Source: an uncultured Bacilli bacterium (GTDB lineage: Bacteria > Bacillota_I > Bacilli_A > RF39 > UBA660). From it: a stretch of DNA of 64,000 bases. A program made the translations under genes and the position numbers. Within the stretch, counting starts at the first letter, position 1. Each line of letters begins with the position of its first letter. Below are positions 666 through 54,068 of this stretch, one piece after another. Location of the stretch: positions 1-64,000 of the forward strand of contig CALVKA010000004.1 in NCBI GenBank assembly GCA_944332475.1, given 5' to 3'. Under the pieces are notes generated by a model. That model saw only the letters and a list, made by a program, of their open reading frames with translations, was not told where the DNA came from and did no database searches.

Positions 666-713
666 AAACATGCCTCCCTTCATTTGTATTATTCGAAGAG
701 AAAAATGTTTTCC

Positions 714-740
714 TGACAAAAAAATAGCCTTTCGGCTATT
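714..740 (-). terminator. Rho-independent terminator after the DUF2238-like gene
   Basis: A 7-bp stem (723-729 with 734-740) closes a GAAA tetraloop on the minus strand and is followed by seven T. The stop codon of the upstream gene lies inside the stem. Confidence 0.85.
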
Positions 741-1545
741 CTTCTTTAAATTTTTTTAATACTGGTAAAAATCGTTCTATAAATTGATATTCGTCACGGT
801 CTTTGATATATAGAAATCCTAAAATAGAGAATATCACTGCCCCAATGAAGTTAACGACTAAGTCTTTCATTGTATCATTAATCCCGATATCTAAGTAACC
901 ACCTTCTACTGTAGTTATCTTTTGACTATTATCACTATAGATTTCTGTTTTATTGATATTATTAATAATAACTGGCTCGTTTTTATCCTCAGGGTTTAGT
1001 TTTGTTGAGGAAATTTGCTCTACTATTCTATCTTTTTGCATGTCCAAACCTAAATAGCGATCTGCTGCAAATTCAAAAAATTCCCAAGCAACACCAATGG
1101 TCATGGAAAAGCAGAATGCTACTAAAGCAACAAATACTGGTGTCATTTTTATATGGAACCGTTCTGTTCGATTTAAAATATCGATTAGGGAAAATCCTAC
1201 TGCTGCTGATAAAAAACCATTTAGAGTATGTAACATGGTATCCCAGTGTTTAAAAATTCCATAGAAATTTTGAATTTCCCCTAATATTTCTGCTGCAAAA
1301 ATAAAAAGATAAACAATAATTTCTAGGGTCGTGGGTAGTTTTACTTTAAAGGTTTTAGAGGCAATCGTTGGTAATGTAAATAAAATTAAGGTTAAGAAAC
1401 ATAAGGCAACTCCGTGCCAGTTTCCTTTTAACGATTGCTCTACAATACATATAATTACTAAAAATCTTAATACTAAGTAAACAATAATATTTATTCTTAA
1501 TTGCTTTTTTTCTTGTTTTTTAGTTTTTTCTTTTTCTTTTGGCAT
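736..1545 (-). CDS. DUF2238-like polytopic membrane protein
   Basis: A 269-residue integral membrane protein with a Lys-rich cytoplasmic N-terminus and about six hydrophobic segments. Residues around 100-112 (KHWDTMLHTLNGF) and the later VAWEFFEF stretch resemble the conserved core of the DUF2238/YjdF-like family, whose function is not known. A polar loop of about 60 residues (around 165-225) separates the last helix, in the segment MKDLVVNFIGAVIFSILG. The start is supported by AAGGAG six bases upstream. It lies 9 bp downstream of the lipid kinase gene, whose stop overlaps this ribosome site, so the two are very probably co-transcribed. A link to lipid metabolism is inference from this pairing only. 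Confidence 0.65.
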   Translation of the reverse strand: MPKEKEKTKKQEKKQLRINIIVYLVLRFLVIICIVEQSLKGNWHGVALCFLTLILFTLPTIASKTFKVKLPTTLEIIVYLFIFAAEILGEIQNFYGIFKHWDTMLHTLNGFLSAAVGFSLIDILNRTERFHIKMTPVFVALVAFCFSMTIGVAWEFFEFAADRYLGLDMQKDRIVEQISSTKLNPEDKNEPVIINNINKTEIYSDNSQKITTVEGGYLDIGINDTMKDLVVNFIGAVIFSILGFLYIKDRDEYQFIERFLPVLKKFKEE

Positions 1546-1554
1546 TTGAACTCC

Positions 1555-2475
1555 TTATTTTTCAAATAATTTTTTGGCATTTGTTTTTGGAATTAACATT
1601 TTTACTTTTTGGTCTACTCTAAACTCATATTTAGGGCCTTTGGAAGCATACTCTTCTCCATCTATGCACCAAGAGGTTTTTGGCTTATCTAAAAATTCTA
1701 TTTCAAAATTGTTTGTTTGATAGTAAGTAATTCCTGGAACTTCTTTTACGTCCTTCATGGTTACTTGTACTAGCATTCTTAAAATATCTGGTTTTGTTTT
1801 GGGATTAGCCAAAGCTACTTCAAACATGTTATCATCCATTTTTACATCATAATAAATATCATCCACACCTGCTACACGAGAAGAGTTGGTAATAAAGAAG
1901 AAAGAATATACTCCTTCATGTTCTACACCATCTACTTTATATTTTACATGGTAGCGATGAATACGATTCCTTAGTTGCCTTAGGCCATATAAAATGTAGG
2001 CGATTTTACCGTATTTTTTCTTTAGGTTTCTTGGTGTACTATATGCCATATCAATATAGTCCCCTAAACAAGCAACATAGACAAATGGTGTATTATCTAC
2101 ATAACAGACATCTACTTTTTTTCTTACACCATGTAATAATAGTTCTAGATTCTTTTTATAGTCTTTGGTATATCCATACATATTAGCAACATCATTTGTG
2201 GTTCCCATGGGAAGATTGGCTAGTACTAATTTTTTGTCTCTATGCAAGTTTCCTGTTACTACTTCATTTAGCGTACCATCTCCACCTGCACTGATTACTA
2301 AATCGACATCGTTTTCTAATTCTTCTATGATTCTAGTGGCATCTTTTGGCCCTTTTGTATATCTAATTTCGGCATCGTAACCATGTTTTCTTAAGACATC
2401 ATAAAAGCCTTGTTTACTATTTAAGCTTTTTACCTTTCCGCTCTCCGGGTTCATGATAATGATACATTTTTTCAT
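1555..2475 (-). CDS. Diacylglycerol kinase-family lipid kinase (DgkB/YegS/BmrU-like)
   Basis: A 306-residue cytoplasmic lipid kinase. The N-terminal DAGK catalytic domain has MNPESGK near residue 9 and the nucleotide-binding signature GGDGTLNEVVTG near residue 65, followed by PMGTTNDVA; the C-terminal beta-sandwich ends with the usual SWCIDGEE motif. Family members phosphorylate diacylglycerol or related lipids with ATP, returning the diacylglycerol released by lipoteichoic acid synthesis to phospholipid synthesis. That fits the presence of LtaS and MdoB-like enzymes in this window. The length is typical. The GGAGCGAAG ribosome site and an extended -10 (TGCTATAAT) lie just upstream, divergent from the gene at 2652. 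Confidence 0.85.
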   Translation of the reverse strand: MKKCIIIMNPESGKVKSLNSKQGFYDVLRKHGYDAEIRYTKGPKDATRIIEELENDVDLVISAGGDGTLNEVVTGNLHRDKKLVLANLPMGTTNDVANMYGYTKDYKKNLELLLHGVRKKVDVCYVDNTPFVYVACLGDYIDMAYSTPRNLKKKYGKIAYILYGLRQLRNRIHRYHVKYKVDGVEHEGVYSFFFITNSSRVAGVDDIYYDVKMDDNMFEVALANPKTKPDILRMLVQVTMKDVKEVPGITYYQTNNFEIEFLDKPKTSWCIDGEEYASKGPKYEFRVDQKVKMLIPKTNAKKLFEK

Positions 2476-2563
2476 AATCTTCGCTCCTCGATAGCTATAT
2501 TATAGCATATTCTTAACTTTTAGTACATTTTATTCTTATTTTATCTATTTCACCTAGTTTTCC

Positions 2564-2592
2564 TTGATTTTATAGCATTTTTCCTGTATAAT
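2564..2592 (+). promoter_or_regulatory. Sigma-A-type promoter for the 2652/2971 gene pair
   Basis: TTGATT, a 17-base spacer and TATAAT, 59 bases before the ATG at 2652. It is divergent from the lipid kinase promoter. Confidence 0.7.
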
Positions 2593-2651
2593 GTTAATTG
2601 TTTTTATCTATCTTCTTGTTGTAGATTAAATTTGTTTAAGGATGGTGTTTT

Positions 2652-3023
2652 ATGTTATATGTTTGCTTGTTCTTACCAGCGAGTATTTCTATTTTGGTAA
2701 GTGAAAGAATTAGAAAAGAAAAAAGGAATATTAGTGAGTTGATTATACCATATCTTGGTTATACTTTTATGATTGCCACCATCATGAATATGATTGTTTA
2801 TTTTATTAGTGACGCTGTAACTCCTTGGTATGATATTTCTACATTTACGTTTGCATTTACATTACAATATACTTGGTTAAGTTTAGTAATTGCAGCTGTT
2901 TTACCATGTTTGGTATATATTGTTTCTAAAGTAGTACAAATTAATATTGAAGTAAAGGAAAAGAAAAAAGATGATAAAAAAGTCGTTGAAGACCGTAGGG
3001 AAAATTATAAAAGGAAGCATTAA
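2652..3023 (+). CDS. Small membrane protein coupled to the MdoB-like transferase
   Basis: A 123-residue protein with about three hydrophobic segments (around 1-17, 31-53 and 74-95) and a strongly charged Lys/Glu/Asp tail (100-123). I do not recognise the family. Its last 53 bases overlap the start of the phosphoglycerol transferase gene in another frame, so translation is probably coupled. The ribosome site is a weak AAGGATGG about five bases before the ATG. The context suggests an accessory subunit or membrane partner of the transferase; this is inference. A chance ORF is unlikely, because it has its own promoter and typical membrane-protein composition. Confidence 0.6.
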   Translation: MLYVCLFLPASISILVSERIRKEKRNISELIIPYLGYTFMIATIMNMIVYFISDAVTPWYDISTFTFAFTLQYTWLSLVIAAVLPCLVYIVSKVVQINIEVKEKKKDDKKVVEDRRENYKRKH

Positions 3024-4560
3024 GGTCCTTTTTGTTATTCTGCTATTTATTTGTTTCTTTGTTGCTCAGGCTTTAAAACTTGGAACAGACTGGGCTCTTG
3101 TCAATTATAGTTTTTCTTCTTTTGATGAAATTTTATATACTTTAGGAACATCTGTTACGGCAGCTAGTGAGGGAGTTTTAAAAGATTTTTTTGAATCTAA
3201 TATTTATCCTCCATTGACGATTACTCTTATTAGTTTATCCGTTTTTATTCTAATTTATATATTTTATAAGAAATTTTTTAAAAATAGTTCTGTTTTTTTA
3301 AACTTAAACTTATTTAAAAAGAAATTTTCTATTAAACTAAATATTTTATTACTAGTGATTGTAGGCTTTCTATGCGTTGTTGGCGTTATGCTTAAAAATT
3401 CCGTTGTTTATGCCATGGATTCCTTATATATTAACGAATATATAGAATCTAATATGCAAACTTCCACTTTCTTTGAGGATGAATATGTAAATCCAGATGA
3501 GGTGGACTTGGAATTTCCTGATGAGAAAAGAAACTTGATTTATATTTTCTTGGAATCGATGGAAGCAACTTATTCTGATAAAGATCACGGTGGTGCTTAT
3601 GATTATAACTACATACCTGAACTTACAGATTTAGCAGAAGACAATATTAATTTCTCACCTAATGATGATGTCGGTGGTGCTTATATGGTAACTGGTACTA
3701 CTTGGACCATGGGTGGAATGATTGCAGAAACAGCTGGAGTTCCAATTAAAAATGTTTTTGGAGCTAATGATGAGAGAAGTTATGAAAACGGTTTTGTACA
3801 TGGGGCTGTTTCTTTAGGTGATATCTTAAAAGATGAAGGATACCGTCAATATATTATGGTTGGTTCTGATTTAGAATTTGGTGGTCGTCTTGCCTATTTT
3901 ACAGAACATGGTGATTATGAAGTTTATGATTATAATAGAGCGATTGAAGATGGAGTTATCGATGAGGATTACTATGTTTGGTGGGGTCTAGAAGATGAAA
4001 AGTTATTTGACTGGGCAAGAGATGAGCTTACGGATATTGCTGATAGCGATGAGCCATTTAATTTTACTATGTTGACTGTAGATACTCATGCATCAGATGG
4101 ATATACTAGTGACTTTTGTCCGAATTATTCTAGAGATCCTTATTTAAATTCTATCTATTGTTCTGATATGCAACTTGCTGAATTTATTAGTTGGATTCAA
4201 GATCAAGATTTTTATGAAAATACTACTATTGTATTAACAGGTGATCATATTAGTATGAATAATTATTCTTTTGATAATATTGATGAGGATTATGATCGTG
4301 GAGTTTATAATGCTTATATTAATTCGGCAGTAGAAACCGATCATAATAAAAATCGCAAGTTTACCACTTTTGATTATTACCCTACTACTTTAGCATCTCT
4401 TGGTGTTAGAATTAAAGGAAATCGTTTAGGACTTGGTACTAATTTATTTAGTGACCGTGAAACATTAAGCGAAAAGTATGGAAATGATTATATTAATGAA
4501 GAGATGGGTAAACGTTCTACTTATTATGATCAATGTATCAATTTTGGAAGATGTAATTAA
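2971..4560 (+). CDS. MdoB/LtaS-family membrane phosphoglycerol transferase (sulfatase fold)
   Basis: A 529-residue protein with three to four N-terminal membrane helices (about 15-150) and an extracellular sulfatase-fold domain. Motifs include NLIYIFLESMEATY (metal-binding Glu), GTTWTMGGMIAETAGVP (the place of the catalytic Thr, closer to OpgB/MdoB GxxWTxxGxxxxxxGxP than to classical LtaS), LTVDTHASDG and LTGDHISM (metal-binding Asp-His). Such enzymes move glycerol-phosphate from phosphatidylglycerol onto glycans or a growing polymer outside the membrane. The start overlaps the preceding small gene and has a purine-rich ribosome site. A second family member, the LtaS-like 38740 gene, is in this window, so the two probably have different acceptors. 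The exact acceptor cannot be told. Confidence 0.8.
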   Translation: MIKKSLKTVGKIIKGSIKVLFVILLFICFFVAQALKLGTDWALVNYSFSSFDEILYTLGTSVTAASEGVLKDFFESNIYPPLTITLISLSVFILIYIFYKKFFKNSSVFLNLNLFKKKFSIKLNILLLVIVGFLCVVGVMLKNSVVYAMDSLYINEYIESNMQTSTFFEDEYVNPDEVDLEFPDEKRNLIYIFLESMEATYSDKDHGGAYDYNYIPELTDLAEDNINFSPNDDVGGAYMVTGTTWTMGGMIAETAGVPIKNVFGANDERSYENGFVHGAVSLGDILKDEGYRQYIMVGSDLEFGGRLAYFTEHGDYEVYDYNRAIEDGVIDEDYYVWWGLEDEKLFDWARDELTDIADSDEPFNFTMLTVDTHASDGYTSDFCPNYSRDPYLNSIYCSDMQLAEFISWIQDQDFYENTTIVLTGDHISMNNYSFDNIDEDYDRGVYNAYINSAVETDHNKNRKFTTFDYYPTTLASLGVRIKGNRLGLGTNLFSDRETLSEKYGNDYINEEMGKRSTYYDQCINFGRCN

Positions 4561-4589
4561 AAAAATTTCTCAGTTGTGAGAAATTTTTT
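4560..4589. terminator. Bidirectional terminator between convergent genes
   Basis: A 13-bp stem (4560-4572 with 4577-4589) has A-tracts at its foot, giving a T-run on either strand. It serves the + strand transferase and the - strand fusion gene. Confidence 0.85.
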
Positions 4590-6849
4590 ATTTGGAATAT
4601 TTTTCTAAAATTTTATCTAATTCTGGCTTTAATCCTCGCTTTTCTTCTGAAACAGATTGCATAATCATATAATCTGGTAGTGAAGCATTTCCTTCTACTA
4701 TTATAGGTCCATCTTTTGTAATCGCAACATCAAAACCAATATATCTTACTGTTGGTATTAAATTATAACATTTCTTTACTAGGTCTATGGATTCCTTCCA
4801 ATATGGTATTTTAAATCCTACTAATTTTACTTTTGATACAGGATGTTCTTTATATCTGTGTTTTTTCTTATCTATTGCGGTTGTATTAATTTTTCCTGTT
4901 TTTAAATCTATTCCTGCTGCTATTCCTCCTGCGCAGAAATTATCAACCATTTTATTTACTCCCATTCGTAAGCATGCCGTTAGAATCTTACACTCTTTTC
5001 CTGTATTAAAAATTACAATTCTAAGTGTATTTACAGATGGAGATATTTTCTCTAAATCTGGATGTTGAACAATATAATCTTCAATTATTCCATCCCTTTT
5101 TTCTTTAATCTCTTTGTATATAGCCTTTATATCGTTATGACAATCAAAGATTGTAAAACCTTCACCTAATGCTAAATCTAATGGTTTATATACAATTTTG
5201 TCTTTATCTTGTATAAATTTTTGTAATTGTTTTAATGTTAAATCTTTTGTTGAACAAAAATCTCTTTTGATATAATCCTTGAAAATTGTATCAAATTCTA
5301 CTTTATTTTTAAACTTTTGTAAATCTTTTGCATCATTAAATTTTTTTACAAAGTTTTCCATATATCCATTCGTTAGATATGTGCTTCTTTGGGTGTCATT
5401 TAACTTATCAAAGTCAAAATCTATATAATCTTCAACTGATATATTAAACTTTTTTTTGCATTGTTTGATATCTTTTTTCAATTCATTGAGTGGAATGTTT
5501 GCTTCTTCAGCATAATCTTTTATCATTTTTTCGAACATTTGCTCTTCGTTTTTCTTCTGTTGTCTTTTTACTCTTACCTTCTTTAAATTATTATATAATT
5601 TTGTTTTATAAACTTTATTAGTTAATCTGTATACTCTGGATCTTTTAATATTTTCTAATTCTGCATATAACCAATCAACATCTTTTTCTAATTCTTCTCT
5701 AGTCTTTGGCTCAGCATTTAATGGTTGTTTTGCTAAAAATTCTTGGAATTCTGGTCTTTCTAATAATTTATTATATACGTTTTCATTTGTAGAATGTCCA
5801 TTATGATATAAATAATATATATGATCATCATATATCCATTGAAAATATTCTTCTAAATGATCTTTAAAATATTTTACATCAAAAACATTTTTATAATCAT
5901 CTAAATTCACATTTAACAAATATAAAGATAGTAATTCTCTTCTACATTTTGGGCATTTTCCACAGTTGTATTCCCTAGCAGTACATACATGTACATATTT
6001 TTTATATAAATTTGTTTGATAAATTTTTTTTAATTTATCAAATCTATTAATTCCTCCACCATCTGAATAGATTTTTAAGCCATTATAACTAAAGCAATCT
6101 AAAGACAATAAATCATAGTGTGAGGCTGGACTACTATCATTATCCTGTATATGAAAGTGTGTATAGTCCAATCCTACAGATCCATAATAATATTTTCCCC
6201 ATAATTTTTCTAAGCATAAAATAGCAAATACAGATGAGTATGTACAAGTTAATAAATGATTCTGAGGTATTTCTTGGTAGAAGTTGGAATCTGTTACAAT
6301 AAGTGGAATATTAATATCTTTCGCTAATTGTTTTGATTTTTTTATTCTTTCTTTTCTTACTTTATCAATTCCTGCTTCTTCATAACACTCATTAAAAGAA
6401 CCTACATTGTTAATACATAAATAGTCTATATTAAAATCTGGATTACTATAATTTATATGTCTAGTAATTGCATATAATGAATCTACGCCTCCAGAACATC
6501 CTGTACCAACTTTTCCTGCTGATTGAATAGGTTTTTTAGGTTTAATATCTACGTTAATATTTTTTAACGATTTTGCATGTTGTGATAATACTGGTATAAG
6601 GGTTTCTTGGATTTGATATAATATTTCATCTGTAGCATAACTATCACTTTTAATATCATGACCGTTTCTCATTGCATATGATAACATTCCTACTAATATA
6701 GGATCCACTCTATCATCACATAAATATTTTTCATATTCCTCTTCTACTTCGTACCAAACACTCTTTTTTTCATTATTAATTTCTAAATCAAAAATTAACC
6801 TTGCTTTTTTATCCTTTTTCTTTATATAAGGTTTATGTAAAAAAATCAT
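4588..6849 (-). CDS. QueC-like PP-loop ATPase fused to a sugar-transfer-associated ATP-grasp domain
   Basis: A 753-residue, apparently cytoplasmic two-enzyme fusion. Residues about 110-310 form an adenylating PP-loop domain with SGGVDS at 119-124 and a zinc-type cluster C289, C296, C299, C302 (NCGKCPKC), as in QueC-like enzymes. Residues about 385-470 are charged and helical. Residues about 475-750 match ATP-grasp_ST: YKP with Lys555, IIEDYI, SPSVNTLRIV near 603, LRMGVNKMVDNFCAGGIA, and the metal-binding IGFDV/IVEGN near 704-721. Each family makes acyl-adenylate or acyl-phosphate-type intermediates, and ATP-grasp_ST is known only from surface-glycan loci. The combined reaction is unknown; amide or ester decoration of a glycan precursor is inference. 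It probably has its own promoter (TTGTAA, 16 bases, TAAAAT) between 6850 and 6913. Confidence 0.75.
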   Translation of the reverse strand: MIFLHKPYIKKKDKKARLIFDLEINNEKKSVWYEVEEEYEKYLCDDRVDPILVGMLSYAMRNGHDIKSDSYATDEILYQIQETLIPVLSQHAKSLKNINVDIKPKKPIQSAGKVGTGCSGGVDSLYAITRHINYSNPDFNIDYLCINNVGSFNECYEEAGIDKVRKERIKKSKQLAKDINIPLIVTDSNFYQEIPQNHLLTCTYSSVFAILCLEKLWGKYYYGSVGLDYTHFHIQDNDSSPASHYDLLSLDCFSYNGLKIYSDGGGINRFDKLKKIYQTNLYKKYVHVCTAREYNCGKCPKCRRELLSLYLLNVNLDDYKNVFDVKYFKDHLEEYFQWIYDDHIYYLYHNGHSTNENVYNKLLERPEFQEFLAKQPLNAEPKTREELEKDVDWLYAELENIKRSRVYRLTNKVYKTKLYNNLKKVRVKRQQKKNEEQMFEKMIKDYAEEANIPLNELKKDIKQCKKKFNISVEDYIDFDFDKLNDTQRSTYLTNGYMENFVKKFNDAKDLQKFKNKVEFDTIFKDYIKRDFCSTKDLTLKQLQKFIQDKDKIVYKPLDLALGEGFTIFDCHNDIKAIYKEIKEKRDGIIEDYIVQHPDLEKISPSVNTLRIVIFNTGKECKILTACLRMGVNKMVDNFCAGGIAAGIDLKTGKINTTAIDKKKHRYKEHPVSKVKLVGFKIPYWKESIDLVKKCYNLIPTVRYIGFDVAITKDGPIIVEGNASLPDYMIMQSVSEEKRGLKPELDKILEKYSK

Positions 6850-6913
6850 TTCCTATCACCAATATTATTTTATCATATATTTTATTAATTACAATTCTTT
6901 ATTTTTATATAAA

Positions 6914-6936
6914 AAAAGTTATCAACGATAACTTTT
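6914..6936 (-). terminator. Terminator after the GH25 lysozyme gene
   Basis: A 10-bp stem (6914-6923 with 6927-6936) has a three-base loop and a T-run on the minus strand. It overlaps the lysozyme stop codon. Confidence 0.9.
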
Positions 6937-9088
6937 AATAATAAAATATATTCATATCTACTCTTCCGTTAATTCCTGGAACACTTCCATCACTTGTATA
7001 TTGCCAGCCTTCATATGTTCCTTGGTACGTTAGTTGGGGTCCCCATTGAGCAACCCATCCAACATATGGTCTCAATGATGATGGAAATCTTGTTTCAATG
7101 AAATTTTTAGAGGCATAGATTTTTACTTCTACTCCTAAAGCGGATTCTACTTTGTTTGCAAAAGTATGATACATAGTTTCATAATCGGATTGAGTAATGC
7201 CATCGCTACTCTCACCAGTTGATGAGATATGCCAATCTTCTAAATCGTAATAAATTGAGAAGATATTAGAGGCAATATTAGCTTGACTATTTTTAATAAT
7301 ATTAATTAAATTATCTGCTTCCATACTAGCTTCATTTCCATTTTCTGCATAACTAAATAAATATACTGAATATGGTATTCCGAGTCTGTTAAGTTCTGAT
7401 ACATTATGTAAGAAATAAGTATCCATCCAACTTACTCCATAACCAGCTCTTAGAATAACTGCGTCTACTAAACCACTATTCTTTACTGCCTCCCAATCAA
7501 TATCTTCTTGATGAGCAGAAACATCAATTACAATTCTTTGGTTGACATATTTTTCAAATGCTCCCGTAATTTCGTTAAATTGATAATATCTTCCCGCTAT
7601 TCTTTGAATTCCTGTTGCTAAAGAACCATCTGGATTATAATAGAACATAGATCCATCTTGATAAATAAATCCATCAAGGAAACCATCCTCTCCAAAGGCA
7701 TAATCTCTACCATCGACAGTTTGATTTCCAAAGACTACGGTTCCATCCATATTGGAATAAAAGATTTGTAAATTATCACTAGTTAAGTTTTGCCAACCTG
7801 TTAGTAATGCACCTTTCGTTAAACCAAAGAAATAAGTTTTGCCTTCGATTTCTTTAAATCCTCTTACAAGATAATTATTTTCTACGTAATAGGTTTTTCC
7901 TTCGATTTCTTGCCAACCTTGTTTTACGCTTCCATCTTCATATAGATAGAATCTTCCTTCTGGTAGCTCTTGCCAGCCTGTTAGTAGAGCTCCTTTGGTC
8001 ATTCCGAAAAAGTAAGTTACACCGTCAATTGTATAAAAGTCATGTACTGCATATCCATCTTCTGCTATATAATATTTTTTTCCATCTACTTCTTGCCAAC
8101 CATACAATCTGTTTCCATTTTCATCAATTATAAACACTTGATTATTATCTACAATATATAATCCTGAAACTAATACTCCTGTTTCTTTATTAAATTGATA
8201 TGGGGTTCCATCGATTTCTAATGTTCCTCTTACAATATACTTATCTTTTACATAGTAAGTTTTTCCATCTATTTCTTGCCAGCCTTGTTTTATGCTTCCA
8301 TCTTCATATAGATAGAATCTTCCTTCTGGTAACTCTTGCCAACCTGTTAGTAGCGCTCCCTTAGTAATTCCAAAGAAATAAGTCTTTCCTTCAATTTCTT
8401 TAAATCCTCTTGCTATATAATTATTTTCTACATAGTAAGTTTTCTCTTCGATTTCTTGCCAACCTTGTTTTATGCTTCCATCTTCATATAGATAGAATCT
8501 TCCTTCTGGTAGCTCTTGCCAGCCTGTTAGCAATGCTCCTTTGGTGATTCCAAAGAAATAGGTTTTTTCTTCGATTTCTTTAAATCCTCTTGCTATATAA
8601 TTATTTTCTACATAATAAGTCTTTCCTTCGATTTCTTGCCAACCTTGTTTTATGCTTCCATCTTCATATAGATAGAATCTTCCTTCTGGTAGCTCTTGCC
8701 AACCTGTTAGTAGAGCTCCTTTGGTGATTCCAAAGAAATAGGTTTTGCCTTCGATTTCTTTAAATCCTTTTGTTATGTAATTGTTCTCTACATAATAAGT
8801 TTTACCTTCGATTTCTTGCCAACCTTGTTTTATGCTTCCGTCTTCATATAGATAGAATCTTCCTTCTGGTAAGTCTTGCCAGCCTGTTAGTAGGGCTCCC
8901 TTGGTGATTCCAAAGAAATAAGTTTTTCCATTTATTTCTTTAAAACCATGGACCATTTTTCCATTTTCATAATAATAAGTTTTTCCACCTTCGATTACCC
9001 AGCCATTTTCAGTATTGGCATTTGCAACGATAAATGGTGAAAAAAATAACGTTACAAATACTGCTATTAATATGAATTTTCTTTTCAT
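6935..9088 (-). CDS. Secreted GH25 lysozyme with tandem wall-binding repeats
   Basis: A 717-residue exported muramidase. Residues 1-25 are a signal peptide (ending near VANA). Residues about 28-510 are choline-binding-type cell-wall-binding repeats of the form GWQEIEGKTYY and GRFYLYEDGS. Residues 518-717 are the GH25 domain with IDVSAHQ (Asp522), the catalytic pair in IYYDLEDW (Asp615, Glu617), and the C-terminal GWQYTSDGSVPGI. GH25 enzymes cut the MurNAc-GlcNAc bond. The repeat order is N-terminal and catalytic domain C-terminal, as in several Firmicute wall hydrolases. An AGGGAGGAG ribosome site precedes the ATG. It sits alone between terminators inside the glycan locus, so it may remodel wall where the glycan is attached; this is inference. 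The ligand of the repeats is not known. Confidence 0.9.
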   Translation of the reverse strand: MKRKFILIAVFVTLFFSPFIVANANTENGWVIEGGKTYYYENGKMVHGFKEINGKTYFFGITKGALLTGWQDLPEGRFYLYEDGSIKQGWQEIEGKTYYVENNYITKGFKEIEGKTYFFGITKGALLTGWQELPEGRFYLYEDGSIKQGWQEIEGKTYYVENNYIARGFKEIEEKTYFFGITKGALLTGWQELPEGRFYLYEDGSIKQGWQEIEEKTYYVENNYIARGFKEIEGKTYFFGITKGALLTGWQELPEGRFYLYEDGSIKQGWQEIDGKTYYVKDKYIVRGTLEIDGTPYQFNKETGVLVSGLYIVDNNQVFIIDENGNRLYGWQEVDGKKYYIAEDGYAVHDFYTIDGVTYFFGMTKGALLTGWQELPEGRFYLYEDGSVKQGWQEIEGKTYYVENNYLVRGFKEIEGKTYFFGLTKGALLTGWQNLTSDNLQIFYSNMDGTVVFGNQTVDGRDYAFGEDGFLDGFIYQDGSMFYYNPDGSLATGIQRIAGRYYQFNEITGAFEKYVNQRIVIDVSAHQEDIDWEAVKNSGLVDAVILRAGYGVSWMDTYFLHNVSELNRLGIPYSVYLFSYAENGNEASMEADNLINIIKNSQANIASNIFSIYYDLEDWHISSTGESSDGITQSDYETMYHTFANKVESALGVEVKIYASKNFIETRFPSSLRPYVGWVAQWGPQLTYQGTYEGWQYTSDGSVPGINGRVDMNIFYY
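8221..8941 (-). repeat. Tandem 180-bp coding repeats in the lysozyme gene
   Basis: Four units of exactly 180 bp (boundaries at 8401, 8581 and 8761) are nearly identical in DNA as well as protein. A further, more diverged unit lies at about 7861-8040. Each unit encodes 60 residues, starting GFKEIEGKTYFFG and ending near VENNYI. High DNA identity implies recent unequal exchange or copy-number change. Confidence 0.9.
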
Positions 9089-9112
9089 TTCCTACTCCTC
9101 CCTAGTATTTAA

Positions 9113-9144
9113 ATTATATCATAGAAAAGGATAATTTCTATGAT
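9113..9144 (-). promoter_or_regulatory. Inverted repeat abutting a -10 element upstream of the lysozyme gene
   Basis: A 10-bp perfect inverted repeat (9118-9127 with 9135-9144, seven-base loop) touches a minus-strand TATAAT at 9113-9118. It could be a weak terminator for the GT2-GT4 gene ending at 9149 or an operator for the lysozyme promoter. There is no clean T-run, so the role is open. Confidence 0.5.
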
Positions 9145-9148
9145 TAAA

Positions 9149-11476
9149 TTATCCATTATTTCTATTTCTCATTAATAACTTGTAAAATAAGATAAATACT
9201 GCTGGAATTGATTGAATTAAAAACTTGATAAAATATAGTAAATTCTTTAGAACTTGATATAGTGTCCTTGCAGCATTTAATATTGTTAGTGCTTCTTGTT
9301 TTGCATGTGCTCTATTTAATACTTTAGATACTCTTCTTTTTAGGTAATATAATCTTCCTTTTTTTCTTGGCTTTCTATTTGGATCATAATAAATATCAAA
9401 TTTTGCTTCTAAATAGTTTTTACAATAGTAGAAATATTCCTTAAATAAACTTTCTATTGCTAAATTATATTCCATGTAGTTATTTACTGGATATTTCGTA
9501 TTTTTTTTCTTTTCTTCCTTAATGCTCTCATCAAATATTTTGGAGAATTTTTCTCCCATTTTGTCTAGGGTAAATCCCTCTTGAATTTTCTTCCTACAAT
9601 TCTTTTTTATCTTATCTATATTTTGTATGACTCTTTCTGTTTCTTTTACATAGTTGTTTATTTCTTCTTCATATTCTTCTTCTGTTGCATCTTCATGATA
9701 GTGTACAATTCCTCCTACAGTATCATCAATTAATTCTGTTTGACCACCTACATCTGTAGAGATCACTGGTACTCCCATGGATAGTGATTCATAAGATGTT
9801 AGTGCCAATCCTTCTAGAGAAGAACAGTTTAATGTCATATCACTTAATGCATAGATTTCTTCTGTGTTTTGGATCATTCCTAACATGATAAAGTTATCGT
9901 CTATTTGACTACTTACATCATGATACAAATACCCGTCTCCTGCAATTACAAAATATAAATTAGGATTTTTTTCTACTAATCTTTTACCTATTTCTACAAA
10001 CATTGTTGGTCTTTTTTCATGAGATAATCGAGCAATAAAAGAAATAACAGTCTTGTCTTGTGGAATTTGATATTTTTCTCTCATTTCTTTTTTATCATAC
10101 TTTGCTGGATTGAACTTTTTATCATCCGTCCCAATGTATAATGTTTCTACATTTTTTCTATGATAATCTTTTATTAATTGATTTTTTGTAAAGTTATTAC
10201 ATACATAAGTCATTGTTAAATATGGATCTACATCCATAGAACATCTTCCAAATCCTTCTCTTGGATCTGCTAAATCGATAGAATGGATATAATCAATAAA
10301 TGGTACTTGTGGATATTTTCTTTTTAGATATGGAATCATATAATATCCATATTGCGTATTACTAACCATAACCAAATCTATATTTCTTGATTCCATCATG
10401 TAATCGGCAAAATTGATATAATCGCTTCTTTCTAGGAATGTTGACATATCATATACCTCTGAACAAATTTCTTCATAATCTTGTCTAATTACGTTATCAT
10501 TTGGTGTTGTCATTAAGAGAATCACTTCATATTTTTCTTTATCTAATCTTTTAATTAAATCAATATTAAAGAAATCTGCTCCACCTGTTACAGCCCATGG
10601 GATTATAAATAAGATTTTAGTTTTTTGGTCTTTTTTATATTTAGGCAAGACCATATCAGGATGTGCTTTCACGATATCATATTGTTTTCCTTCTCTTGGA
10701 AATTGAATGATATCAACATCATTAGTAATCCTACTAGCTGTTTCATTTACATAACGCATTGCATTTTCTTTGTTTTTGTTTGCCCTAGAAAATTCTCCGG
10801 AATTTGAATAACGATACCAGAAGATTGGCGCGTTTACTCGGATAGGAACCTTTCCTTTTTCTAAAAGCTTTAACCATAAATTCCAGTCTTCATACATAGC
10901 TTTTTCTTTGATTCCAAAACATCCAACTTCTAATAGGTCTTCTTTTCTAACCATGGTACTAATACAAATCAAGTTTTCTTCTTTTTCGTCATCTACAGTT
11001 AAATATTTTTCCCATAAGAATTCTTTTTCACCAAAGTTTACCATAGTTGCATAAGCAAAAGAGCCTTCTGGATGTGTTTCTAGTGTCCAGTATAGACACT
11101 CTAGCATGGTTTTATCTAGAATATCATCACAATCTAGAAAGAAGATATATTTAGTTTCTGCACTAGCATTATCTATACCATAATCTCTAGCAATAGATGG
11201 TCCTCCATTTTCTTTGTGAAAAACTCTAATTCTTTTATCCATCTTAGCTACTTCATCTAGTTTTTTTAATGATTCTTTATCTTTTGAACCATCATCTACT
11301 ATAATCCATTCAAAATAAGGATAGGTTTGACTAAATACACTATTAGCTGTTTCTAATAATGTTTTTCCACCGTTATAAAATGGTGTAATAATACTAATCG
11401 TTGGTTCTTCTGTATTTTTTATTTCGCCAATTAACTCTATTTCTTTTCCCGGTCTTTTACTGTAATCAAAGTTCAT
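9149..11476 (-). CDS. Bifunctional glycosyltransferase: GT2 domain fused to GT4 domain
   Basis: A 775-residue protein. Residues about 25-240 are a GT2 (GT-A fold) domain with ISIITPFYNGGKTL, IIVDDGSKD and the metal/nucleotide site FLDCDD. Residues about 285-640 are a GT4 (GT-B fold) domain opening with KILFIIPWAVTGGADFF and carrying ISFIARLSHEKRPTMF and ESLSMGVPVISTDVGG. The tail (640-775) has a basic helix pair and a hydrophobic segment (about 735-765), suggesting membrane attachment. Such proteins add two sugars in succession to a lipid-linked or polymer acceptor; the sugars cannot be told. Its first 11 bases overlap the end of the preceding GT4 gene, so it is the last gene of the 15179-to-9149 operon. 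Confidence 0.88.
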   Translation of the reverse strand: MNFDYSKRPGKEIELIGEIKNTEEPTISIITPFYNGGKTLLETANSVFSQTYPYFEWIIVDDGSKDKESLKKLDEVAKMDKRIRVFHKENGGPSIARDYGIDNASAETKYIFFLDCDDILDKTMLECLYWTLETHPEGSFAYATMVNFGEKEFLWEKYLTVDDEKEENLICISTMVRKEDLLEVGCFGIKEKAMYEDWNLWLKLLEKGKVPIRVNAPIFWYRYSNSGEFSRANKNKENAMRYVNETASRITNDVDIIQFPREGKQYDIVKAHPDMVLPKYKKDQKTKILFIIPWAVTGGADFFNIDLIKRLDKEKYEVILLMTTPNDNVIRQDYEEICSEVYDMSTFLERSDYINFADYMMESRNIDLVMVSNTQYGYYMIPYLKRKYPQVPFIDYIHSIDLADPREGFGRCSMDVDPYLTMTYVCNNFTKNQLIKDYHRKNVETLYIGTDDKKFNPAKYDKKEMREKYQIPQDKTVISFIARLSHEKRPTMFVEIGKRLVEKNPNLYFVIAGDGYLYHDVSSQIDDNFIMLGMIQNTEEIYALSDMTLNCSSLEGLALTSYESLSMGVPVISTDVGGQTELIDDTVGGIVHYHEDATEEEYEEEINNYVKETERVIQNIDKIKKNCRKKIQEGFTLDKMGEKFSKIFDESIKEEKKKNTKYPVNNYMEYNLAIESLFKEYFYYCKNYLEAKFDIYYDPNRKPRKKGRLYYLKRRVSKVLNRAHAKQEALTILNAARTLYQVLKNLLYFIKFLIQSIPAVFILFYKLLMRNRNNG

Positions 11477-12755
11477 CTACTTCACCTCTATTTTTCTTTC
11501 TGTCAATTTTTCTAGCAAGTCTTCCGATAATAGACTTTCTTAAATATGCATTTAATTGGTTTATTTCTTTATATAAATCTTGTGTTCTTAAATATAATTC
11601 TTTGTTTTCTTGTTCTAAATTTTTAATTTTTTCTGAATAATAATTAAGTCCTAAAAAAACACTCTCTAAGTTACTTTCTTTTTTTAATGGAGAAATATCT
11701 AGATATACACTACTTGATATAGCTAAATTGTTTGCGACATAATGGTAATTATCATCTAGTATTTCTAATAATTCTTTTTCCGTATAGTTAAACAATTCAT
11801 CTTTATCATTATCTAAGTTAATACCTGTAAAGTTTTCTTCAATTGCTTTCTTTATATTTTTTGGTGTAATCAAGATTACATTTTTTTTGTATCCACAGAC
11901 AACAGCAGGTTTCTTTGAAGCAACTGCTTCTAGCATACACCTATCTACGCCTAGTAAAATATCTGCTTTCTCTATTTCTGGAATCATATCAGAAACAGCA
12001 CCTTTAAAGGTAATGTTTTTATCCTGATATTTATTTACCATTTCTTCAAATAACTCTCCATCTCCTACTATTGTTAAAGTTGCACTAGAATTATATTTTT
12101 CTCTATAATAATTGTAAAACTCAACGGCCGTATCGATAGATGTTCTTTTTTGTTCAGAAATTCTTCCAAACCACATCAATTTATTGAACTTCTTTGGAAT
12201 TTTGTTAACTTTTTTATCAGGATACTTACTAAAATCTAAACTGTTATTGATTACTAAGTATTTTTCTTTTGGTAATTTAAACAGTTCTATGTGTTCTTGT
12301 TTTACTTTATCTGTAATAGCAATTATTTTAGAGGCACATTCAAAATAGATAGGAAATAAAACTTTATATATATCATAATGATCCATAAACCACTCACAAG
12401 TTTTAGGAACAATATTATGTAAATAAGCGATGTATGGAATATTAGTTTCGAATACTACTGGTAAAATATATGGAACGCAAGAAAATTGATGTACATAGAT
12501 AAAATCTATTTTTTTCTCTTTTACAAAGTTTGTAAGCCATTTTACCTTTTCCATGTTAATATTATTTTCTAATTTAAAATCAAACTCTATAAATTCAATA
12601 TTTTTTAATTTTTTTAAATTTTTTGATAATAGCCCTTCTCTAGCTAATACATAACATTTTATTTTTCTTCTTGTAAATTCTTCTACTTGGGTAATTGTAA
12701 AAGTCTCAACCCCACCTATTCCTAATTGTTCTAAACAAATTAATGCTTTTTTCAT
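11466..12755 (-). CDS. GT4-family glycosyltransferase with C-terminal coiled coil
   Basis: A 429-residue retaining glycosyltransferase of the GT-B fold. The N-terminal domain has LEQLGIGGVETFT (the GGxE/A donor-side loop) near residue 8. The C-terminal domain has LMWFGRISEQKR near 193 and a VDRCMLEAVASKKPAVV segment in place of the usual EGxxxxxxEAxxxGxP. Residues about 372-429 form a coiled coil ending in a basic SIIGRLARKIDRKK tail, a pattern repeated in neighbouring enzymes. The start has GGAGG upstream; the stop is UGA and overlaps the next gene. It probably adds one sugar of the surface glycan from a nucleotide-sugar at the inner membrane face. Confidence 0.85.
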   Translation of the reverse strand: MKKALICLEQLGIGGVETFTITQVEEFTRRKIKCYVLAREGLLSKNLKKLKNIEFIEFDFKLENNINMEKVKWLTNFVKEKKIDFIYVHQFSCVPYILPVVFETNIPYIAYLHNIVPKTCEWFMDHYDIYKVLFPIYFECASKIIAITDKVKQEHIELFKLPKEKYLVINNSLDFSKYPDKKVNKIPKKFNKLMWFGRISEQKRTSIDTAVEFYNYYREKYNSSATLTIVGDGELFEEMVNKYQDKNITFKGAVSDMIPEIEKADILLGVDRCMLEAVASKKPAVVCGYKKNVILITPKNIKKAIEENFTGINLDNDKDELFNYTEKELLEILDDNYHYVANNLAISSSVYLDISPLKKESNLESVFLGLNYYSEKIKNLEQENKELYLRTQDLYKEINQLNAYLRKSIIGRLARKIDRKKNRGEVDEL

Positions 12756-12770
12756 ATTTCCTCCAATATA

Positions 12771-15179
12771 TTATCTATGTAAAATTTTATTTAATATATT
12801 TCCTACCTTATCAATAATCTTAAATCTCTTGCTGTTATAGATTTGTTTTATTTGTTCTTCTAGTTCTTTATTTCTATTTATTAACATTTCTTTTTCTTTA
12901 TTATCACTACTCATAATTTTATAATTTGATAAATCAGATAGTATTTTTAACTCATTATTTTCTAAATCATTAAAAACTTGATTTCTTTCTAATGGTCTTT
13001 TTACTGATTCAATTAAAGATGGATTATATTTGATTATATTATTAATATCAGTAGCTATTGTAGTAAAATTGTTTTGAACTTTATTATATAATTTTTTACC
13101 TTTTTCATTTTTCAATATAACAGCTGATACGCCCAAGTTGTCAAAAAGTTCACGATGCACATGATATATTCCCCAGTAATCACCTAATATAATATCTGCA
13201 GGATTGTTGTCTAATCCCTTTGCTGGACAGTTGTAACAACTTTCTCTTAAAGTAAAATTATTAATATAAAGATTCATTAGTGAATCTTCCGTGAAAGTGT
13301 AACTTTTGCGGATTCTTTTAGATTCAAACTCAATTGTTGATTTGTCCCAACCATTTGTTTTAGAGCGGTACTTTACAGACTTCATTTTAGTTTCAAATTG
13401 TTTTTCAAATTCATTAATTCGTTTTTTTAATAATTTATCATTTATAACACCATGACAAATTACACTTACTGTATATAGATTTTCATAATCTTTGTTTAAA
13501 TACTTCTTCAATCCTAGTATTTGACAAGGCGTTCCAGAAAACAATACTTTTTTCTTTTCTTTTAAATCTTTTTGTACTTGTTGAAATATATTATTTAAAT
13601 TACTTTGAGCATATTTAGAACCTTTTATTTTTATTAAATCTTTTTTATTTGTAATTCTAGTATGTTTTACTTTAAAATTATTTAGCTCTGCTCCATAAAC
13701 TATACCATTTTCATCTAGTATTTGTGTTGCTAAAAAGTGGAATACGCCTCCTGATGAACTTGCCTTTCTAACTTCATCTGATTTAGCTTTTACAGCGTAG
13801 CCCTCAATCTCTTCAAATTTGGTTTTTATTGGGTGAAGTGCACTACAATAATTTCGGCACTTATTACAATGAATACATTTATCTAAATCTATTTCTGGAT
13901 ATAAGAACCCTTCTTTATTTTCTACAAATTTAATGGCATTAACAGGACAAATGTTTAGACATGCACTACAACCTGTACATTTATCTTTTGGACAAACATA
14001 TTTTTTATCTAAATAATCTAATCTGTTAAGCATTTCTTTATACAGATTTTTAGCATTTGTTTTTACTACTTTCATCTTTTCTTCTAGAGTTTCTTTTATC
14101 TTTTTCTTATTCTTTTCTATATATTTAAACTTGTTAATTAGTGCATCTTTTTGTAGTTCTTCTGTTGGTAAAACATAATCTTGGTAATTTCCAAATAAAT
14201 CTTCTGCAATTCCACGTGATTTTACACTATAACCAATTACTAAAGTTGGAACTCCTGTTGAATAAGCAGCGATTGAAGCATGAGTTCTGGCAGCAACAAG
14301 CAAATCACATTTTGAAATAATATATTTTATTTCTTGACAATCATATTCACCGTCATCTAAATAAATTCTATCTTCATCTGGGTAAAGTTCTTTTATTTTT
14401 TTCAATACACTTAAATCACTTACTTCTTCTACTGCTACATGTGGTAATAAAGCAATCGAATAAGTAGTATTGTTTAATATATGATCTATAAATTCTTTAA
14501 TTGATTCCTCATTATCTTTTGTTTTGATTGTTAATGGGCTTAAATTTAGTCCAATTACTTTTCTATTTTTATACCATTTTGATAATTTTACTTTTTTAGG
14601 TACTAATGAAAAAGCAGGATCTGGTACTAACATTAATCTGTCTTCATCAATGTATTTTTTTATTGCGTTATAACTTATTTTTTCTCTAATCATTAATAAA
14701 TCATATTTTTTTAAATCATTAATTAATTCTAAGTCATGCATTTCATCATATAAGGAAGCTCCCCATAAAACTGTTTTTTTATTTAATTCTTTAGCTTTTG
14801 TATTTATAGCATAAATCCATTCATTTACACCATAACAATAGTTATCTCCTCCTATATGAATACAAATATCTGAATCTTTCATTTCTTTAATTACGTCACG
14901 CTCATAAAACCATTCGTAGTTATTATAATCAAAAGGAATACTTTTAATATGTTCAAACTCTTTCTTTTCATCTTCATTAAATTCTTCTTCATTTTGTTTG
15001 TGATGATTAACAAAATATTTTATTCTGTCTTTATACATATTTTTATCATGTTCATAATCAAATGTAGCAGCTACTATTTCGACATTTGAATCAATTTGAG
15101 CTATAGTAGAATTTACTAATGCTTCACAGCCTCTATTTTGCAGCGATCCAATTCCATATAATAAAATTTTTTTTACCAT
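12771..15179 (-). CDS. Polysaccharide pyruvyltransferase / 4Fe-4S / FrhB-like fusion protein
   Basis: An 802-residue fusion. Residues about 10-340 match the polysaccharide pyruvyltransferase domain (LLYGIGSLQNRGCEA, IHIGGDNYCYG near 108, AARTHASIAAYSTG near 296). Residues 396-445 hold two 4Fe-4S motifs: C401-C404-C407-C411 and C435-C438-C441-C445. Residues about 455-750 match the F420 hydrogenase/dehydrogenase beta-subunit domains (ASSSGGVFHFLATQ, FSGTPCQILGLKK, NPADIILGDYWG). Residues about 760-802 are a coiled coil with a basic end. Both halves occur separately in capsule and exopolysaccharide loci. The first ketal-links pyruvate to sugars; the second is a flavin/iron-sulfur oxidoreductase of unsettled substrate there. 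It is the first gene of the three-gene operon down to 9149. Confidence 0.85.
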   Translation of the reverse strand: MVKKILLYGIGSLQNRGCEALVNSTIAQIDSNVEIVAATFDYEHDKNMYKDRIKYFVNHHKQNEEEFNEDEKKEFEHIKSIPFDYNNYEWFYERDVIKEMKDSDICIHIGGDNYCYGVNEWIYAINTKAKELNKKTVLWGASLYDEMHDLELINDLKKYDLLMIREKISYNAIKKYIDEDRLMLVPDPAFSLVPKKVKLSKWYKNRKVIGLNLSPLTIKTKDNEESIKEFIDHILNNTTYSIALLPHVAVEEVSDLSVLKKIKELYPDEDRIYLDDGEYDCQEIKYIISKCDLLVAARTHASIAAYSTGVPTLVIGYSVKSRGIAEDLFGNYQDYVLPTEELQKDALINKFKYIEKNKKKIKETLEEKMKVVKTNAKNLYKEMLNRLDYLDKKYVCPKDKCTGCSACLNICPVNAIKFVENKEGFLYPEIDLDKCIHCNKCRNYCSALHPIKTKFEEIEGYAVKAKSDEVRKASSSGGVFHFLATQILDENGIVYGAELNNFKVKHTRITNKKDLIKIKGSKYAQSNLNNIFQQVQKDLKEKKKVLFSGTPCQILGLKKYLNKDYENLYTVSVICHGVINDKLLKKRINEFEKQFETKMKSVKYRSKTNGWDKSTIEFESKRIRKSYTFTEDSLMNLYINNFTLRESCYNCPAKGLDNNPADIILGDYWGIYHVHRELFDNLGVSAVILKNEKGKKLYNKVQNNFTTIATDINNIIKYNPSLIESVKRPLERNQVFNDLENNELKILSDLSNYKIMSSDNKEKEMLINRNKELEEQIKQIYNSKRFKIIDKVGNILNKILHR

Positions 15180-15270: not shown

Positions 15271-15290
15271 AAGCAACCAAATGGTTGCTT
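15271..15290 (-). terminator. Terminator of the ABC exporter operon
   Basis: An 8-bp stem (15271-15278 with 15283-15290) with a four-base loop and a following T-rich stretch on the minus strand. It overlaps the permease stop codon. Confidence 0.85.
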
Positions 15291-16062
15291 ACAGTTCTTC
15301 AACAAAACTCTTTTCAAGTTTTTTAAATATTTTATAGCCAATGATAACTAAGAATATACTTCCAATTCCCCAGATCCCTAAAACAGACCAATGTGGCATT
15401 TGATGATAATAAAGTATTGCACGGTAAGCTTCTACTAATTGGGCCATTGGATTTAAATTTAATATCCATTGAAATTTCGCTGGTAACATGTTTGCTTGAT
15501 ATACAATAGGTGTTGCATAAAATCCTAACATTAATATTACACTTACAAAATGGTCAACATCTCTTACAAATACTGTTATAGCAGAAAGAATAAATGTTAA
15601 AGCTAATGTAATAAGATATTGGATTAATACTAATACTGGAAATAGTAATAAATGAATTGAAAAACCTACTCCACTAAATATAATAAAAGCAAACATAATG
15701 ATACAAGTAATTAAGAAATTAACCAATTGACTGGTTGTAACAGAAATGGGAATAATTTCTCTTGGAAAATATACCTTTTTTAAGATAGCTCCGTTAGCAA
15801 CAACACTACCGGTTCCCATTTGAATGGCCGTTGTAAAGAAGTTCCATGGAATTAGAGCAACAATCATAAAGATTGTATAGTTTTCTACATTTACTCTTAA
15901 AATATAAGGGAATACAAAAGAATATACGGCTAGCATTAATAATGGATTTAAGAAGGTCCATAATACTCCTAACCATGATCCCTTATATTTACCACGAATT
16001 TCTTTTTTAATATTGGTCTTTAATAATTCACGATAATTATATAATTCTTTAAATACTTTCAT
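15289..16062 (-). CDS. ABC-2-type polysaccharide/teichoic acid export permease (TagG-like)
   Basis: A 257-residue permease with about six membrane helices. The opening (MKVFKELYNYRELLK...IRGKYKGSWLG) is the standard N-terminus of TagG/RfbA/Wzm-type exporters. It works with the ATPase encoded next to it to move an undecaprenyl-linked glycan across the membrane. The ATG at 16062 is preferred over a GTG at 16071, because AAGGTG is about ten bases from the ATG but one base from the GTG; the stop of the ATPase gene is then one base away. A Wzy/ligase-like protein is also present in the locus, so either two glycans or a mixed route are made here. Confidence 0.9.
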   Translation of the reverse strand: MKVFKELYNYRELLKTNIKKEIRGKYKGSWLGVLWTFLNPLLMLAVYSFVFPYILRVNVENYTIFMIVALIPWNFFTTAIQMGTGSVVANGAILKKVYFPREIIPISVTTSQLVNFLITCIIMFAFIIFSGVGFSIHLLLFPVLVLIQYLITLALTFILSAITVFVRDVDHFVSVILMLGFYATPIVYQANMLPAKFQWILNLNPMAQLVEAYRAILYYHQMPHWSVLGIWGIGSIFLVIIGYKIFKKLEKSFVEEL

Positions 16063-16063
16063 T

Positions 16064-16807
16064 CTATCCACACACCTTTAAGTATTCTTCTAATACATCC
16101 TCTACTTTGCCATCCATTCTAACTTCACCTTTGTATAACCAAACAGCACGATCACAGAATTGTTTTACTTGTTGCATACTATGTGTAACAATTACGATAG
16201 TTTTTCCTTCTTTTTTTAACTCTTTTAATTTATTAAAGCACTTTTCTTGGAAGTGTTGATCTCCTACTGCTAAGATTTCGTCAATTAAAAGGATGTCCGC
16301 TTGTACATTAATCGCAACAGAAAATGCAAGTCTCATGTACATTCCAGAAGAGTATGTTCTTACTGGATTATCAATAAAATCATGTAACTCTGAAAACTCT
16401 ATAATTTCATCGATTTTTTTATCAATTTCTTTTCTTGTTAATCCAAAAATAGATGAGTTAAAGTATATATTTTCTCTTCCTGTAAAGTCTTCATGAAATC
16501 CAGCACCTAACTCTAATAAAGATGTTAGTTTTCCATTGGTAGTAATTTTTCCTTTATTTGGATAGATAATTTTAGTCATTAATTTTAACAGTGTTGATTT
16601 TCCACTACCATTGGTTCCTATTAAGGCAACACTTTCACCTTTTTTGATTGTTAGATTGATATCTTTTAATACATGTAAGATAGAGTCTTTACTTTTATTC
16701 TTTTTGGAAAAAAACAAAATTTTTTCTTTTAAAGTATTTGCTTTATCATAATAAAGTTTAAAGTCTTTTGACACATGTGTTACTTTGATTGCTGTATCTT
16801 TTTCCAC
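16064..16807 (-). CDS. ABC transporter ATPase for polysaccharide/teichoic acid export (TagH-like)
   Basis: A 247-residue ATP-binding subunit with Walker A GTNGSGKST near 66, ABC signature YSSGMYMRLAFS near 150, Walker B ILLIDEILAVGD near 171 and the switch-His in IVTHS. It powers glycan export with the adjoining permease. It is the short form, without the C-terminal carbohydrate-binding extension seen in some TagH/Wzt proteins, so substrate recognition probably lies in the permease or lipid carrier. GAGGT directly abuts an ATG at 16813 but is six bases from a GTG at 16807, so the GTG start is preferred with moderate certainty. Confidence 0.9.
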   Translation of the reverse strand: MEKDTAIKVTHVSKDFKLYYDKANTLKEKILFFSKKNKSKDSILHVLKDINLTIKKGESVALIGTNGSGKSTLLKLMTKIIYPNKGKITTNGKLTSLLELGAGFHEDFTGRENIYFNSSIFGLTRKEIDKKIDEIIEFSELHDFIDNPVRTYSSGMYMRLAFSVAINVQADILLIDEILAVGDQHFQEKCFNKLKELKKEGKTIVIVTHSMQQVKQFCDRAVWLYKGEVRMDGKVEDVLEEYLKVCG

Positions 16808-16865
16808 AACCATACCTCATTTCTGTTTTAACCCTTTAATTTTTTTCATTTTTTATAGCGATATT

Positions 16866-54067: not shown

Positions 54068-54068
54068 T

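Follow-up and report, generated by a model that had tools for sequence, protein, structure and literature searches.

A QueC-like PP-loop domain fused to an ATP-grasp domain at a surface-glycan locus of an uncultured Bacilli bacterium: a candidate glycan-tailoring enzyme

Introduction

The closest described relatives of the protein analysed here are PP-loop enzymes of the QueC superfamily, among them QueC itself (PF06508), QatC of the qatABCD anti-phage defence system and Cap9 of type IV CBASS. Cap9 joins 7-deazaguanine to the N-terminus of a protein (PMC13279940). The survey of the superfamily from which we took the defining motifs of QueC, Cap9 and QatC used PF06508 as its dataset and mentions neither ATP-grasp nor capsules; the only member with a surface-sugar role that it covers is WbpG, which is encoded in O-antigen loci and is a PP-loop enzyme assigned to the QueC superfamily (PMC13329287). 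An ATP-grasp domain that works on a surface glycan is known from Campylobacter, where Cj1438 makes amides on an acidic sugar: a GT2 domain is fused to a C-terminal, TupA-like ATP-grasp (PF14305) that amidates capsular glucuronic acid (PMC11800379).

Here, we describe a gene located in the first 64,000 nucleotides of contig CALVKA010000004.1 of an uncultured Bacilli bacterium (assembly GCA_944332475.1), hereafter referred to as the window. An original prediction, made from the sequence alone, had proposed that the encoded protein joins a QueC-like domain to an ATPgrasp_ST domain (PF14397) and represents a possible new glycan-modifying enzyme. We compared both halves, and the gene neighbourhood, with the systems above.

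Results

The gene (4588..6849, minus strand) starts with ATG, ends with a stop codon and encodes 753 residues. The open reading frame, the PP-loop SGGVDS at residues 119-124 (6478..6495, minus strand), the cysteines 289, 296, 299 and 302 and the motifs TLRIV, DNFCAGGIA and IVEGN, on which the original prediction was built, are all present as described there. Since the same fused open reading frame, 752 residues long and 84% identical, occurs in a second genome (contig CALVJZ010000078 of an uncultured Bacilli MAG; loci L002/L004), the fusion is not an artefact of assembly. Comparison of the two genes gave dN/dS values of 0.070 (QueC-like half), 0.24 (linker) and 0.076 (ATP-grasp half), which are rough values because synonymous sites are close to saturation. 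Strong purifying selection acts on both halves, which are kept working. In a structure model of the full chain (pTM 0.53), they are connected by a long helical linker and their relative placement is uncertain.

As a search for similar folds based on the full chain yielded ATP-grasp structures only, the N-terminal half (residues 1-345; 5815..6849, minus strand) was folded alone, using an alignment of 18 sequences; one row, from an annotated plasmid record, was left out of the structure modelling. The resulting AF2 model (pLDDT 92.4, pTM 0.91) consists of an N-terminal beta domain (residues ~1-110) and a PP-loop core (~111-345). Over the model range 1-345, its best structural match was QatC (9y01; Z 13.4, rmsd 4.8, 291 residues aligned), followed by QueC (3bl5; Z 12.4) and Cap9 (9nto; Z 12.3), while all other PP-loop enzymes, of which TilS, LarE and MnmA came next, reached a Z of 8.7 or less, leaving a gap of 3.6 Z units to the third match. 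These matches were obtained with a second-look aligner applied to Foldseek's own list; plain Foldseek yielded nothing below E 0.001 in PDB or among viral models, and the half is therefore only distantly related to QatC, QueC and Cap9. A sequence search of the PDB returned no real relative, no match was found among Pfam, NCBIfam or PADLOC models, and scores against PHROG were at chance level. In profile comparisons, which were weak tests as the templates were single sequences, QueC was not significant and MnmA was weakly significant over the PP-loop.

Eleven residues (G121, D123, N189, R269, K272, C289, N295, C296, C299, K301 and C302) are invariant in all 18 sequences. They include two residues of the PP-loop, the arginine and lysine of an RxxK motif (6034..6045, minus strand) and the four cysteines of a predicted zinc site, C289-x6-C-x2-C-x2-C302 (5944..5985, minus strand). 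Judging by the order of the motifs, K272 probably corresponds to the conserved lysine that precedes the zinc motif of QueC. Taken together, the PP-loop, the cysteine site and the drop in Z after the third match make it very likely that the N-terminal half, as modelled, is a QueC-like enzyme. The original prediction had named a first half devoid of PP-loop geometry as the finding that would speak against it; the predicted fold instead aligns best with QatC, QueC and Cap9, and both the PP-loop and the four cysteines are conserved. The same comparisons bear on the idea that this half transfers sulfur to a sugar in the manner of LarE, TtuA or ThiI. Such a role would agree with the common PP-loop superfamily and with the Z values of 7.6-8.6 for LarE, MnmA and TtuA, but these values stand against 12-13 for QatC, QueC and Cap9, and the arrangement of the four cysteines is of the zinc type, whereas LarE binds an Fe-S cluster through three cysteines (PMC13329287). 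We thus consider sulfur transfer extremely improbable.

In order to place the half more precisely, it was compared with each named system. With QueC, the window protein shares the SGGxDS loop, the core fold and the C-terminal four-cysteine site, and ATP-dependent activation of a carboxylate, as performed by QueC, may be expected of it as well. The zinc motif is C(x)8CxxCxxC in QueC but C(x)6CxxCxxC in the window protein, although the x8 spacing occurs in two of the 18 relatives. The QueC motifs YxQxHxxE, VPxRN and YPDC are missing from all 18 members, apart from one stray YxQxHxxE close to the C-terminus in L064, and none of the 18 matched the PF06508 profile at E 1, so that the dataset family of the survey does not cover this family. 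With QatC, the full-length fold including the N-terminal extension is shared, as are the PP-loop and the zinc cysteines, at 10% sequence identity; the QatC motifs RxRxxxF/Y and CGxCxxRR are absent from this family, and the fusion to an ATP-grasp domain is a further difference. With Cap9, the core fold is shared but the Y.DC motif is absent. As to gene context, QatC is encoded in an operon with qatA, qatB and qatD, whereas glycan genes and no qat partners were seen at the window locus, and no CD-NTase gene was seen beside the window gene.

QueD catalyses the first committed step of 7-deazaguanine synthesis. Its gene (queD, PF01242) was found in none of the 14 carrier genomes, some of which are incomplete, compared to nine of 14 reference genomes used as control. 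Since the substrate motifs that characterize QueC, Cap9 and QatC are lacking as well, 7-deazaguanine is an unlikely substrate. These observations also weigh on a role in defence or signalling, in which the half would modify proteins like QatC or Cap9, perhaps with 7-deazaguanine. QatC is the best full-length structural match, and the attachment of 7-deazaguanine to a protein N-terminus by Cap9 (PMC13279940) provides a precedent. However, the lack of queD and of the tyrosine-aspartate substrate motif, the missing PADLOC match and a neighbourhood of glycan genes, in which no defence gene was seen, render such protein modification very improbable.

With a profile of the QueC-like half, strong members were recovered from roughly a dozen genomes of the same bacterial family, from one genome of the same class, from Virgibacillus subterraneus and from Paracoccus yeei plasmids. 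Most of them are single-domain proteins of ~400-450 residues, and many share the extended loop SGGxDSxY. This loop, together with the O-antigen-associated PP-loop enzyme WbpG of the QueC superfamily (PMC13329287), which is likewise linked to surface sugars, would suit an enzyme that forms an amidine or an amide at an N-acetyl sugar, in the manner of the N-acetyl sugar amidotransferases of the WbpG/PseA type. Yet the WbpG pattern CxxC(x)6CxC is absent in all 18 members and the NCBIfam models for N-acetyl sugar amidotransferases did not match the QueC-like half, which makes this reading improbable. The profile of DUF6395 (PF19932) matched two relatives weakly (best E 7.9e-5) and did not match the window protein at E 1. 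One relative on a P. yeei plasmid (L028 8461-10137; 558 aa) has an extra N-terminus of ~170 aa and lies among metabolic genes, outside a glycan locus; a pyruvyl transferase identity of this extra region is not supported (E 0.035). We assign the QueC-like half to a branch of the QueC superfamily that is linked to glycan loci and has so far no annotation.

The C-terminal half is a clear member of ATPgrasp_ST, the sugar-transfer associated ATP-grasp family, as had been predicted: PF14397 matched residues 499-747 (4609..5355, minus strand) with 180 bits (E 7.4e-53), the curated cut-off being 31.4. Its best structural matches were RimK (5zct; Z 15.8), ArgX/LysX and cyanophycin synthetase, all of which form amide bonds via an acyl-phosphate. 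The predicted Mg/ATP triad D707, E719 and N721 (4687..4731, minus strand) has the same spacing as D248, E260 and N262, which we take to be the metal triad of RimK. The Campylobacter enzyme Cj1438 resembles the window protein in carrying a C-terminal ATP-grasp in a surface-glycan enzyme; it differs in that its N-terminal partner is a GT2 and its ATP-grasp belongs to the TupA-like family. While the window copy lies in a glycan locus, lone copies of ATPgrasp_ST in this bacterial family are often found outside such loci. In six genomes, a lone ATPgrasp_ST gene directly adjoins a gene recognized by eye as RpiB/LacAB-like (L008, L009, L015, L017, L018 and L022; for example L008 1384-2382 and 2382-2831). 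Our literature search found no mention of ATPgrasp_ST/PF14397 or of DUF6395.

The ATP-grasp fusion was found in two genomes only, and searches of overlapping genome sets of 99 to 398 genomes each revealed no further case. In genome G015, which belongs to the same genus, the QueC-like gene is unfused at the same place, between the choline-binding GH25 gene and a convergent sulfatase gene, and no ATPgrasp_ST gene was found in this genome (73% complete). In G1007, from another genus, a separate QueC-like gene is 53% identical to the window protein over residues 1-409 and lies beside a choline-binding GH25-type gene. The same genome carries two tandem ATPgrasp_ST genes, ~40% identical over residues 378/382-750, which group with the fused half in a tree (support 100/99) and reside in a glycan locus with exporter and glycosyltransferase genes on another contig; as G1007 is fragmented, it is possible that both halves belong to a single locus. 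In G1007, the QueC-like gene is immediately followed by a lysine 2,3-aminomutase-like radical SAM gene (L063 1162-3784), and beta-lysine is a possible amine donor. Given the separate counterparts of each half, we conclude that the fusion arose by end-to-end joining of two complete genes; the similarities to the two separate genes overlap in a junction zone at residues 378-409 (5623..5718, minus strand). Such joining supports a linked role of the halves, short of showing that they act on one shared molecule.

Other fusions of the QueC-like domain were detected as well. In L072 (7753-9981), a degenerate copy without SGGxDS is joined to a polysaccharide pyruvyl transferase, and in L070 the domain is joined to a CoaE-like P-loop kinase. 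The L070 operon (683-9764) further contains PGA_cap, Amidoligase_2 and ATP-grasp_4 genes, as well as genes read by eye as a threonine aldolase, an E1-like and a JAB-like gene; it gives the impression of an amide or peptide pathway not described before. A different ATP-grasp gene, of the TupA-like type, is present at the carrier locus L065. Like Amidoligase_2 and ATP-grasp_4 of L070, it is of an amide-forming type, and the occurrence of such genes at carrier loci speaks for the amide reading proposed below. These data are relevant to the alternative that the two halves of the window protein are independent tailoring enzymes which are merely tethered, the QueC-like half modifying a sugar precursor, the ATP-grasp half a different residue or a lipid-linked chain, with no intermediate in common. 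In favour of this reading, the QueC-like half usually occurs as a single domain, has also been combined with a pyruvyl transferase and a kinase, is encoded separately from its ATP-grasp counterpart in G1007 and is separated from it in the window protein by a long helical linker in a model of low pTM. On the other hand, the repeated fusion to glycan- or ligase-type partners and the strong selection on both halves suggest, without proving it, that the activities are linked, and we regard mere tethering as a serious but rather unlikely explanation.

The surroundings of the gene agree with the predicted surface-glycan locus. Next to it, on the same strand, is a gene for a choline-binding GH25 muramidase-type protein (6935..9088, minus strand), which also adjoins the QueC-like gene in G002, G015 and G1007. 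It is followed by a GT2 + GT4 glycosyltransferase (9149..11476, minus strand) and a GT4 glycosyltransferase (11466..12755, minus strand), both identified by profile matches, a polysaccharide pyruvyl transferase fused to an FrhB-like 4Fe-4S protein (12771..15179, minus strand; PF04230, PF04432) and, as judged by eye, the permease and ATPase of an ABC-2-type polysaccharide exporter (15289..16813, minus strand). Farther along the window, at 53171-54977, a tandem pair of closely similar nucleotidyltransferase-like genes was noted by eye.

Among the 13 carrier genomes assessed, eight have a pyruvyl transferase open reading frame within 6 kb of the QueC-like gene or fused to it, compared to 0.22 expected for random placement within 8 kb, a contrast that is overstated because random placement ignores the clustering of glycan genes. 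For the stand-alone gene of V. subterraneus (L003, 7983-9200), the distance is 1.9 kb. An FrhB-like 4Fe-4S gene directly follows the QueC-like gene in three genera (L064 1856-3004, L065 8631-9764 and L066 6246-7367), and in G015, as in the window, FrhB and the pyruvyl transferase of the locus are joined in one protein; FrhB-like 4Fe-4S proteins and pyruvyl transferases occur together. A second setting was found at five loci (L037, L038, L067, L068 and L069), at which the QueC-like gene occurs with an HMGL-type aldolase and a KdsC-like HAD phosphatase and, where these are in reach, in most cases with a cytidylyltransferase and RpiB. The set with aldolase, KdsC-like phosphatase and cytidylyltransferase, often with RpiB, spans L037 10757-13558, L038 1497-4827, L067 2944-6290 and L069 3950-7284; the gene families of L067-L069 were read by eye from their likeness to profiled genes. 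This set would suit the synthesis of a CMP-activated ulosonic acid, perhaps of an unusual kind. A free carboxylate, the group that is activated by QueC, is present in ulosonic acids and pyruvate ketals alike.

Discussion

No published reaction was found for the combination of a QueC-like and an ATPgrasp_ST domain, in agreement with the original prediction. Its suggestion of a new enzyme holds in so far as the pair is rare and we found no description of it; each half, on the other hand, comes from a known superfamily.

We propose, tentatively and with close to even credence, that the protein is a bifunctional enzyme tailoring a surface glycan, in which the QatC-like half and the RimK-like ATP-grasp half each form an amide. 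The QatC-like half would convert ATP to AMP and pyrophosphate and thereby turn the carboxylate of an acidic sugar, for example that of a pyruvate ketal, into an acyl-adenylate, from which an amine or ammonia would produce the amide. The ATP-grasp half would convert ATP to ADP and phosphate and form a second amide via an acyl-phosphate, most likely joining an amino acid or another amine to the same repeat unit. Of these steps, the acyl-adenylate chemistry is suggested by analogy with QueC and Cap9, the amide product by RimK and by analogy with Cj1438, the nearest counterpart whose activity has been tested, and the acidic substrate by the neighbouring genes, from all of which we infer the scheme. 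Which sugar would own the carboxylate is a guess, as the gene contexts name two different acidic sugars. The two activities should be separable, since most members of the family have no ATP-grasp half and no ATPgrasp_ST gene was found in G015. That PP-loop enzymes also perform sulfur transfer and amidine formation counts against the amide reading.

Extended to the whole family, this proposal becomes less likely: the QueC superfamily may have a glycan branch, as a third beside queuosine synthesis and anti-phage protein modification, in which a QatC-like enzyme makes amides by adenylating the carboxylates of acidic sugars at the surface and has been recruited, through fusion, to different partners (an ATP-grasp ligase, a pyruvyl transferase and a kinase). 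In the window protein, a single chain would then activate carboxylates in two chemically different ways.

That QueC-like enzymes modify proteins in phage defence is a recent finding, and what QatC itself catalyses is not yet known. A QatC-like family tied to surface glycans represents a third setting for the same fold. The unfused copies in Virgibacillus and Paracoccus, for which isolates exist, are tractable test cases. If the amide reading is true, it would add a new type of decoration to those of bacterial surface polymers, together with a marker gene by which to find it.
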